This document shows positions 11,397 to 54,820 of a stretch of DNA of 64,000 nucleotides, in pieces. Positions within the stretch are counted from its first letter, which is position 1. Each line of letters starts with the position of its first letter. Origin of the DNA: Candidatus Kapaibacterium sp. (lineage in GTDB: Bacteria > Bacteroidota > Ignavibacteria > Kapaibacteriales > UBA2268). Below the pieces are notes generated by a model, which had not been told where the DNA came from, made no database searches, and saw only the letters and a list, made by a program, of their open reading frames with translations. The position numbers and the translations under genes were made by a program. The stretch lies in assembly GCA_026390695.1 (NCBI GenBank), contig JAPLFL010000095.1, forward strand, positions 1-64,000. The letters run 5' to 3'.

Positions 11397-11467
11397 TGTC
11401 ATTCCTGCGCATGCAGGAATCCTCATCCAGTACCAATCAGGGGATTCCTGCATTCGCAGGAATGACA
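11397..11467. repeat. Intact 71-bp palindromic REP-like repeat
   Basis: The outer inverted ends TGTCATTCCTGCG (11397-11409) and CGCAGGAATGACA (11455-11467) are exact complements. Each end also forms its own hairpin (ATTCCTGC-4 nt-GCAGGAAT). Related copies lie at 2831-2889 (decayed), 53721-53883 (one arm split by an insertion), 53763-53834 (inside that insertion) and 54361-54424 (inside punA). It is a small non-coding palindromic element; its mobilising enzyme is not in the window. Confidence 0.85.
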
Positions 11468-11520
11468 GCGATAAAGAATTTTTACACAAGCTCATTCACA
11501 GGAATTACATTTATAGTACC

Positions 11521-52755: not shown

Positions 52756-53694
52756 ATGAACATTGCTCAAGCAAAAATATATTGCATTGGTGAAACAGTA
52801 TTTGATATAATATTTGATAATTTTAATCCAATTGCAGCTAATGCCGGTGGATCTGCCTTCAATTCTGCGGTTTCAATTGCCCGCAGTGGGCTTTCTGTCT
52901 GTTTTATATCTGAAATCGGTCATGATATGATAGGGGATCATATTATCAACTTTTTTGAAGAAAATCACGTTTCATCCGAATTTATTTATCGCTTCAAAGA
53001 CGGACAAACACCATTGGCTGTGGCACTATTAGATAAAAATAGAAATGCAAAGTATCAATTTTATAAGAATTATCCTGAAAATAGATTTTTAACAAAAAAT
53101 CCGAAATTTCATGCTTGCGATTATTTGCTTTTTGGCTCATATTTCGCTCTCAATCGGGAACTACGTGGAAAATTAATTGAAATTCTTGAATTAGCTCGAC
53201 GTGCCGGAACGACTATTATTTATGACCCTAATTTCCGAAAACCTCATGGCAAGGAATTACCAGAACTTTTACCTTTTATATTAGAAAATATTGAATTTGC
53301 AGATTTAGTACGTGGTTCAGCGGATGATTTTAAATTGATTTTCAATACAACTGAAATTATAGAGATTTATCAAAAGTGCCATGAAAAGCCACTGATAATG
53401 ACAGATGAAGCAAATGATGTTCAATTTATTAATAATGGGAAAATACTTTCTGTTGAGCAATCATCGATCAATGTTATAAGTACAATAGGAGCGGGTGATT
53501 CGTTTAATGCAGGAATAATTTATTATTTAGTTAAAGAAAATTTAAATAAGTTTGATTTTCAGGAATTAACTGAAGAAAAGTGGAAAAAAATAATAAAGTC
53601 TGGAATTCGATTTGCGCAGAATACATGCGGCTCTTTGGAGAATTATGTTGATAAAGATTTCCTTGTACCAAAGCAGGAGCTTGTGAACAAGTGA
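52756..53694 (+). CDS. PfkB-family carbohydrate kinase
   Basis: 312 residues. The N-terminal NAGGSAFNSAVSIARSGLSV binds sugar, and the C-terminal TIGAGDSFNAGIIYYL holds the catalytic Asp and the anion hole. YDPNFRKPHG and DLVRGSADDFKLIF are typical of fructokinase-like members. The exact sugar is unclear. It is on the plus strand, divergent from the 5'-nucleotidase, and its 3' end is followed by the repeat cluster. Confidence 0.88.
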   Translation: MNIAQAKIYCIGETVFDIIFDNFNPIAANAGGSAFNSAVSIARSGLSVCFISEIGHDMIGDHIINFFEENHVSSEFIYRFKDGQTPLAVALLDKNRNAKYQFYKNYPENRFLTKNPKFHACDYLLFGSYFALNRELRGKLIEILELARRAGTTIIYDPNFRKPHGKELPELLPFILENIEFADLVRGSADDFKLIFNTTEIIEIYQKCHEKPLIMTDEANDVQFINNGKILSVEQSSINVISTIGAGDSFNAGIIYYLVKENLNKFDFQELTEEKWKKIIKSGIRFAQNTCGSLENYVDKDFLVPKQELVNK

Positions 53695-53737
53695 TACAAA
53701 AACCTCAGAATATAAAAATAGGGGATTCCTGCATTCG

Positions 53738-53866
53738 AGACTGTGTGAAAACTTCAATCTCTTGTCATTTTTGCGCATGCAGGAATCCCCTGATTTGCAC
53801 TGGAATGAGGTTCCCGCATGCGCGGGAATGACAGATACGTAATTATTTCGTGTTTTCACACAGTCT
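53738..53866. mobile_element. 129-bp MITE-like element with 15-bp terminal inverted repeats and 6-bp target duplication
   Basis: AGACTGTGTGAAAAC (53738-53752) is perfectly inverted at 53852-53866. CATTCG flanks both ends (53732-53737 and 53867-53872). There is no transposase reading frame, so it would need an enzyme supplied elsewhere. Its interior (53763-53834) is itself a REP-like palindrome pair with TGTCATT and AATGACA ends. Confidence 0.85.
53763..53834. repeat. REP-like palindromic repeat carried inside the MITE-like element
   Basis: Outer ends TGTCATT and AATGACAG; inner hairpins GCGCATGC-type and TTCCCGC/GCGGGAA. The right hairpin has the variant CCCGC core instead of CCTGC, indicating a different subtype from the 11397-11467 copy. 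Confidence 0.75.
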
Positions 53867-53908
53867 CATTCGCAGGAATGACAGAAATGAATAGAAAATA
53901 TTAATTTT

Positions 53909-54820
53909 ATGTTTGGCTTAACAAAAGAATATTCGGATTATTATTCCTCAGTAGCAAAGAGCTTCAGGACTGTGTTTTCACAGTATATTGATGCTTTTGT
54001 AATAATAGGATCAGGTTTGTCAGAGTCTTATTCACAATTTGAAATTGTTGAAAAAATTCCATATTCTGCCGTTGACGGTTTTCCAAAGATAGGAGTAGCA
54101 GGGCATTTGGGTGAGTTTGTGTTATGTAAAGTCAATACAAAAAATATTTTGTTCTTTTCAGGAAGAGTGCATTTTTATGAAGGTAGGAAATTAACTGATT
54201 TGCTCATTGTTCCTGCTCTGGCTGCATATCTCGGAGTAAAGGATATTTTGGTGACTAATGCTGCAGGTGGACTCAATCATAGTTTTGAAGTATCTGATAT
54301 AATGCTGATTGAAGATTTGATGAGTTTCATGTTTCTCAGTGTTGATCAGCTTTTTAGAGTTGTCATTCCTGCGAATGCAGGTATCTCCTATGCAGCTGTG
54401 GAAATGGATTCCGGCATTCACATAAATAACAAGAAAAATGGCTTTACGCCAATTCACATTCGAGGTAATTTAAGAAATGAGATTAACCATGATCTACTGC
54501 ACCGTATGAAAGATAATCTTATTCAACGAAAACAACATTTTAGATGCGGAACTCTGCTGAGTGTGCAGGGGCCAAATTACGAAACACCTGCCGAAATCCG
54601 CATGTACTCTAAGATAGCGGATGCAATAGGAATGAGTACAGTACCAGAGCTAATCTTCGGATCGAGGCTTGGGCTGAGGCAATTGGGAGTATCTATTATC
54701 ACAAATAAACTGAATCCAATAAAACCTGACTTCCTGAGCCACGAAGAAGTTGTAATTGCCGGAAAAAATGCTAATAGAGCGCTGTCTGAGCTGTTTAGTG
54801 GGTATTCTGAGATAATTTAA
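53909..54820 (+). CDS. Purine nucleoside phosphorylase with an in-frame repeat-derived insert
   Basis: Phosphorolysis of purine nucleosides (salvage). Trimeric PNP family features: IIGSGLS near the start, SGRVHFYEGR with the catalytic-site His, VTNAAGGLN, YETPAEIRM with the substrate Glu, GMSTVPE, and the Asn of ITNKLNP. The 303 residues exceed the usual 270-280. The extra part (about 151-175, VIPANAGISYAAVEMDSGIH) is encoded by a palindromic REP-like element and lies just after DIMLIEDLMSFMF, near the loop that normally reads NPL-G. The frame is kept. Whether the enzyme remains active is not known. Confidence 0.88.
   Translation: MFGLTKEYSDYYSSVAKSFRTVFSQYIDAFVIIGSGLSESYSQFEIVEKIPYSAVDGFPKIGVAGHLGEFVLCKVNTKNILFFSGRVHFYEGRKLTDLLIVPALAAYLGVKDILVTNAAGGLNHSFEVSDIMLIEDLMSFMFLSVDQLFRVVIPANAGISYAAVEMDSGIHINNKKNGFTPIHIRGNLRNEINHDLLHRMKDNLIQRKQHFRCGTLLSVQGPNYETPAEIRMYSKIADAIGMSTVPELIFGSRLGLRQLGVSIITNKLNPIKPDFLSHEEVVIAGKNANRALSELFSGYSEII
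54361..54424. repeat. REP-like element inside punA-type gene
   Basis: TGTCATTCCTGCGAATGCAG (54361-54380) is the same left arm as at 11397. A weakened right arm (GATTCCGGCATTCACA) is at 54408-54423. The frame through it encodes the VIPANAGIS-type peptide seen when this repeat class is translated. Confidence 0.8.

Follow-up and report, generated by a model that had tools for sequence, protein, structure and literature searches.

The window analysed here is a stretch of 64,000 nucleotides from Candidatus Kapaibacterium sp. (contig JAPLFL010000095.1, positions 1 to 64,000). Between a PfkB-type kinase gene, which ends at 53694, and a purine nucleoside phosphorylase gene, which starts at 53909, both on the forward strand, the window contains a short insertion that we call T1 (Table 1). 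None of the open reading frames of at least 100 amino acids listed for the window overlaps it. The predicted DNA fold of T1 has an energy of -36.8 kcal/mol, against a mean of -13.06 for shuffled sequences (z = -9.03). A match to the Rfam family MIR319, at 30.5 bits against a gathering score of 54, was rejected as a chance hairpin, and there was no other Rfam match.

Table 1. Coordinates of T1, of REPs in the window and of other elements in the same genome (G000)
Feature	Position	Strand	Remarks
T1 element, 131 bp	53737..53867	+	no ORF; single long imperfect hairpin
T1 left terminal inverted repeat, 16 bp, GAGACTGTGTGAAAAC	53737..53752	+	
T1 right terminal inverted repeat	53852..53867	-	perfect copy of left
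Duplicated 4-nt loop ATTC, left copy	53733..53736	+	
Duplicated 4-nt loop ATTC, right copy	53868..53871	+	
Host palindrome (REP), left stem arm, ATTCCTGC	53725..53732	+	predicted fold of empty copy: 8-bp stem, 4-nt loop
Host palindrome (REP), right stem arm, GCAGGAAT	53872..53879	+	
Internal REP 1: TGTC tag, ATTTTTGC stem, loop GCAT, GCAGGAAT, CCCC tail	53763..53790	+	loop is nesting site in other T1 copies
Internal REP 2, inverted to REP 1: stem GTTCCCGC, loop ATGC, GCGGGAAT, GACA	53807..53833	-	loop is nesting site in other T1 copies
Uninterrupted REP pair	11397..11468	+	second REP, 11440-11468, equals joined flanks of T1
REP pair, second half degenerate	54361..54431	+	in frame inside purine nucleoside phosphorylase gene, 53909-54820
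Intact T2 (G000)	L153:512-642, L006:2079-2209, L020:1100-1230, L038:460-590		
T3 (G000)	L160:377-549, L174:362-534		

An earlier note, made from the sequence of the window, had described a 129-bp segment with perfect inverted ends, flanked on both sides by CATTCG, and both the segment and its flanks are present. At 53737-53867 alone, ends of 15 bp with a 6-bp duplication and ends of 16 bp with a 4-bp duplication fit equally, because the target palindrome provides C and G around its loop. We prefer the second reading, which gives an element of 131 bp, because the IS1182 elements of related genomes start with GAG and because published IS1182-type MITEs are described with 4-bp direct repeats (PMC11578231, PMC3852290). 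The target duplication is thus real, but would comprise ATTC and not CATTCG, with the G on the left and the C on the right assigned to the ends of the element. With 16-bp ends, the duplicated ATTC is precisely the loop of the host palindrome, which has an 8-bp stem. T1 is itself built around two copies of this palindrome, a feature absent from the earlier note.

Joining the flanks of T1 yields 29 bp that are identical to 11440-11468, with 17 bases to the left of the junction and 13 to its right. Since the identity reaches no further than the palindrome, 11440-11468 is another instance of the host repeat rather than the former state of the site at 53737-53867. The earlier note had taken it for an intact empty-site copy; it does display the shape of an empty target, but as a paralogous REP and not as the allelic pre-insertion state. 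Together with 11397-11423 it forms an inverted hairpin pair, in which each member, as single-stranded DNA, is predicted to fold into an 8-bp stem with a 4-nt loop.

The host palindrome fits the CGTC-1/dRS3 kind of REP, a family that includes the dRS3 repeats of Neisseria (PMC3733652). At 11397-11423 and 11440-11468, sequence and fold display a TGTC tag, an 8-bp stem starting with AT and a 4-nt loop, and the REPs here share with the published family the arrangement as inverted pairs and the occasional location within genes. The tails are CCCC or CCT and not CCA, but the CCA tail is given for "most" CGTC-1 REPs in the published account and is not strictly defining (PMC3733652). A further difference from the family as described there is that the REPs studied here act as both target and cargo of a MITE. 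As a separate observation, the REP pair within the purine nucleoside phosphorylase gene is translated as VVIPANAGIS..., and alignments to PDB sequences break across it. The predicted protein is about 32 residues longer than 1vmk, and the extra length lies at this break.

T1 is one of many copies. In the 4.63-Mb assembly, the inner 15 bp of the T1 end have 243 matches with at most 2 mismatches, against 13 for a reversed control pattern, a recurrence far above chance. The whole 163-bp stretch recurs in at least 143 alignments at E<=10 (best 40 of 264 candidates scored). For parsing, we used the 30 best DNA matches, the surroundings of transposase genes, and places among the first 100 listed end matches and 163-bp matches. 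This gave 52 distinct elements with paired ends, a non-random sample chosen by similarity or perfect ends from the roughly 120 expected from 243 end matches. The length is 130-131 bp in 35 of the 52.

An exact 4-bp duplication is present at 21 of the 52 parsed copies, whereas permutation of the right flanks gave a mean of 4.9 and a maximum of 13 in 20,000 rounds (P = 5e-5). When flanks were permuted only within the same loop orientation, 8.5 exact duplications were expected and 19 were observed among 33 copies. Outside the loop, six or more of the eight positions are complementary in 36/52 copies. The flanks carry the loop in opposite orientation at 8 of the 52 copies, which calls for later recombination or another route. 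According to the earlier note, the same ends at sites without any duplication, or a lack of other copies or of a partner insertion sequence in the genome, would speak against transposition. By this measure the outcome is mixed, since 31 parsed copies lack an exact 4-bp duplication and a partner is absent from the own genome, yet other copies are numerous.

Several further structures came to light among these loci. One T1-type element of 293 bp has a foreign interior (L039:254-546, on contig C99 of G000), and its flanks are inverted (GAAT/ATTC) and not direct. Two long end pairs, C3:17885-21073 and C41:133400-136143, were considered as autonomous partners and rejected; they enclose ordinary genes and consist of separate short elements. 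The starts of contigs C77 and C15 and the end of C95 (L002, L030, L043) break in the common sequence ATTTTTGGTTAAGCCTGCTTTTCAAACATACAAACTC, perhaps an unassembled multi-copy element.

T1 also inserts into the REP loops of other copies of itself, which predicts that same-strand ends of neighbours lie one end-to-loop distance apart. In copies of 130-131 bp, these distances are 41-42, 50, 84-85 and 92-94 bp. Same-strand end spacings shorter than 300 bp number 28, of which 25 lie at predicted distances, namely at 41-42 (15 cases), 50 (1), 84-86 (8) and 93 bp (1), a count in which copies within one array are not independent. The three spacings off the prediction are 27, 176 and 281 bp. At locus L048 (contig C15), a 131-bp T1 flanked by ATTC on either side lies in the second loop of an outer T1. 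Removal of the inner T1 and one ATTC restores a T1 of 130 bp that is 97.7% identical to two intact T1s elsewhere.

The same applies to a sister family, T2, which is 131 bp in length, has the ends GAGGCTGTCTCAAAAG, also encloses a REP pair, and often holds a copy of T1. The T2 interior is no further from T1 than the T1s of the genome are from each other (70-84% identity). We found six loci with T1 inside T2, all six with exact duplications. At three of them, removal of T1 leaves 131, 131 and 132 bp with 96.2, 96.9 and 93.8% identity to the intact 131-bp T2 of L153. Reconstruction at the remaining three gives 181, 120 and 171 bp, with only partial matches to this T2. A third repeat family, T3, has the ends ATATCATTTCCT enclosing REP pairs and likewise holds T1 copies, with less clean reconstructions. 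Precise nested insertion of T1 is thus shown for both T1 and T2. The earlier claim of a MITE-like insertion with target duplication is supported by these nested pairs of filled and empty sites, which extend over about 130 bp and are much stronger evidence than the note had.

It could be argued that insertions were few and old, and that REP and T1 have since spread as a composite unit by homologous recombination, gene conversion or larger repeats. The alignment of the whole 163-bp stretch at many places is in line with this, and so is the frequent recombination evident from mixed flanks and tandem arrays. Against it, the flanking loop letters vary among copies and yet agree within a copy, far more often than in the permutations. 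Moreover, T1 is found in lone REPs, in T1, T2 and T3, and in two palindromes of other sequence in the related genome G006. We therefore regard spread as a composite as unlikely, and read the T1 copies as products of separate insertions.

The 163-bp query matches three of 59 other genomes searched (G004, G006 and G014), all from the same family, so that the tally is 4 of 60 with the own genome. Elements were parsed from G004 (5), G006 (5), G014 (10) and Cloacimonadota (1), 21 altogether, of which 7 have an exact 4-bp duplication and 13 a length of 129-133 bp. They have a common interior skeleton, which consists of an end, about 10-18 bases, a GTCAT hairpin, a linker, the inverted hairpin, about 11 bases and the second end, with a hairpin sequence that varies by genus. 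Among ten elements compared, interior identity is 52-67% between genera and 70-84% in the own genome, and several pairs score above shuffles. Together with the common REP-pair skeleton, this identity led us to reject the idea that the interiors of the relatives' elements are unrelated. The lengths of T1, T2 and the relatives' elements cluster at 130-131 bp despite the differing interiors.

Two insertions in G006 (L195 and L203) lie in a palindrome of other sequence, ATTCCCAAAT/ATTTGGGAAT, and agree with duplication of a 4-nt loop, CGGA, only when their right end is taken as one base shorter. They are a hint that shape may rank above sequence in targeting. Nearly all T1 targets are REPs, however, which is compatible with recognition of sequence. 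In G014, T1-type ends are also found around a very different palindromic core, of the ACCCTCCCCGAAGGGGAGGG type or CCCCTTT/AAAGGGG (L210:200-385, L211:204-389 and L215:274-593), which suggests that cores may be exchanged between elements.

Only 10 stretches of an 84,980-species collection that possibly does not include the own genome contain a strict pattern of REP half stem, any four bases and full end. Six stretches come from four Cloacimonadota MAGs and four from three Ignavibacteria/Bacteroidetes MAGs. A second end was found for one of the six Cloacimonadota loci, at 253 bp, and the link to Cloacimonadota is therefore weaker.

With respect to the transposase, the best lead comes from a genome of the same order (G050). 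Its locus L091 is a 1772-bp IS1182 element with GAGGCTGTGTGAAAAC at both ends, one mismatch per 16-bp end from T1, and sits between the arms of a CTCCCCTTT/AAAGGGGAG palindrome. The predicted protein of 549 amino acids matches the NCBIfam model NF033551 for IS1182 transposases at 398.7 bits (cut-off 270). Among the PF01609 and PF00872 transposase loci fetched from 45 genomes, L091 is the one with T1-like ends at both sides. In the same family as the own genome, G075 contains three complete copies of IS1182 type whose ends, GAGGCTGTCTCAYAAG, are T2-like (441.5 bits to NF033551 for L128), and G002 has an IS1182 start, cut by the contig end, that begins with GAGACTGTGTAGAAAC (L131). Among the four complete IS1182 elements examined, L091 and L132 lie between clear inverted arms, L134 between arms of only 4 bp, and L128 between none. 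A 4-bp duplication was present at none of the four.

Neither a PF05598 search nor the L091 protein (no match at 1e-10) revealed an IS1182 transposase in the own assembly. The same was the case for the three relatives that hold T1 (G004, G006 and G014), and for three Cloacimonadota genomes, in a search run without a positive control. The single PF05598 match in the own genome, an IS5-type gene, was rejected as partner, as its flanks lack T1-like ends. The PF01609 search returned the same gene and a broken DDE transposase gene on contig C31, and PF00872 (IS256) had no match. As the searches of the own genome yielded no IS1182 protein, we infer a partner that either has been lost or lies in an assembly gap. 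T1 matches IS1182-type MITEs in its ends, its short length without a transposase and its 4-bp repeats. An autonomous partner in the same genome, another mark of such MITEs, was not found in the assembly; it is not strictly defining, since a partner may disappear or escape assembly. Taken together, the ends, the duplication of 4 bp and the palindromic targets point to an IS1182-family transposase as the mover. The earlier view that T1 is driven from elsewhere is thus plausible, given the absence of such a transposase from the assembly and the near-identical ends of IS1182 elements in relatives.

The ends may also derive from another DDE insertion-sequence family that shares GAG.CTGTGTGAAAAC, for example from an unassembled element of the own genome, in which case the link to IS1182 would be coincidental. 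The lack of a partner in the assembly and the contigs that end in repeats leave room for this, as does the fact that the families searched yielded no more than an IS5-type transposase and a broken DDE one in the own genome. On the other side, three traits, the ends, the 4-bp repeats and the palindromic targets, fit IS1182 together. IS256-type transposases are without a match in the own genome, and no fetched PF01609 or PF00872 locus other than L091 had a close T1-like end pair. On balance, a source outside the IS1182 family appears improbable. That T1 is a RAYT-mobilised assembly of REPs (BIME) and not a DDE-driven MITE is hardly credible, although it contains REP pairs and the own genome has four Y1_Tnp matches: three of these loci have no REP within the stretch examined (up to 1.5 kb on each side), the fourth, which is broken by a stop, has one about 0.8 kb away, so that with none of the four closely flanked by a REP a RAYT-REPtron was rejected, and a duplicated loop next to exact 16-bp ends is characteristic of DDE elements.

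We therefore return to the IS1182 reading. T1 at 53737-53867 is a real and well-supported insertion of a known kind, an IS1182-type MITE in a REP target. Very likely, it is a non-autonomous element for which a transposase acting in trans joins the ends at the 4-nt loop of a palindrome, and gap repair then duplicates the loop. In this scheme, an IS1182-family DDE transposase would bind the 16-bp ends, which are then joined to the two strands that flank the loop of a short palindrome with the stem TTCCTGC/GCAGGAA. The transposase may read its target either as an extruded hairpin or cruciform or as a plain double-stranded dyad. Repair of the gaps would turn the loop into a 4-bp direct repeat. Each copy of T1 would add two landing sites, because T1 carries two such palindromes. 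Nested copies that subsequently lost one side, presumably by recombination, would leave direct arrays repeating at 41-42 and 84-86 bp.

The insertions resemble a pathway that was drawn as a possibility in 2017, in which the ends are joined on the 5' side of the loop in each strand and the loop is thereby duplicated (route c of PMC5678879). In the same account, IS1272, an IS1182-family element, replaces its stem-loop target and leaves no duplication (PMC5678879), and its hairpin targets are described as having little primary sequence conservation (PMC4923244). T1 is similar to IS1272/TnSha1, as presented in these sources, in hairpin targets without common sequence, in 16-bp ends, and in a transposase family that is also that of L091; larger forms in which the left end is repeated in tandem may be counted as a further likeness (PMC5678879, PMC4923244). 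Unlike these elements, T1 keeps the stem on both sides and duplicates the loop.

MITEPye1 of Paracoccus yeei (PMC11578231) and the ISMac2-linked MITEs of Methanosarcina acetivorans (PMC3852290) are likewise small, lack an ORF and have IS1182-like ends. 4-bp direct repeats are given for MITEPye1, which also shares the long hairpin fold, and for one of two ISMac2 entries. MITEPye1 is reported in 1-3 chromosomal copies (PMC11578231), against roughly 120 for T1, and, unlike for T1, the cited accounts of the two groups mention no palindromic target, carried target sites or nesting. ISRm22 and other insertion sequences are described as inserted at the axis of palindromic REPs (PMC1525189), but these are full elements of the IS4, IS110 and IS3 transposase families, and carried REPs are not mentioned in that description. 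A search of the open-licence literature returned no paper on T1. T1 is unusual in the exact duplication of a hairpin loop, in carrying its own targets and in nesting, as seen from spacing arithmetic and reconstruction.

A wider scheme can be put forward tentatively, and we think it rather less probable than its opposite. T1 and T2 may be interchangeable IS1182-type shells of about 131 bp around a core, a REP pair whose loops are landing sites, and the system may seed itself, as each jump would create two new targets and copies would nest. The transposase would read hairpin shape and not sequence, and duplicate the loop. In four genera the shell stays nearly constant in size although the core hairpin varies, as if a paired-end complex measured length.

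The published hairpin cases of the IS1182 family, as described in PMC5678879, replace the hairpin, whereas the genome that carries T1 contains dozens of natural insertions that keep stem and loop. The pairs of filled and empty sites inside elements make it testable whether shape or sequence is recognised. The nesting of T1 is a simple account for the growth of MITE-REP mosaics and of tandem arrays of 42 and 85 bp, and such arrays in assemblies need not stem from replication slippage.
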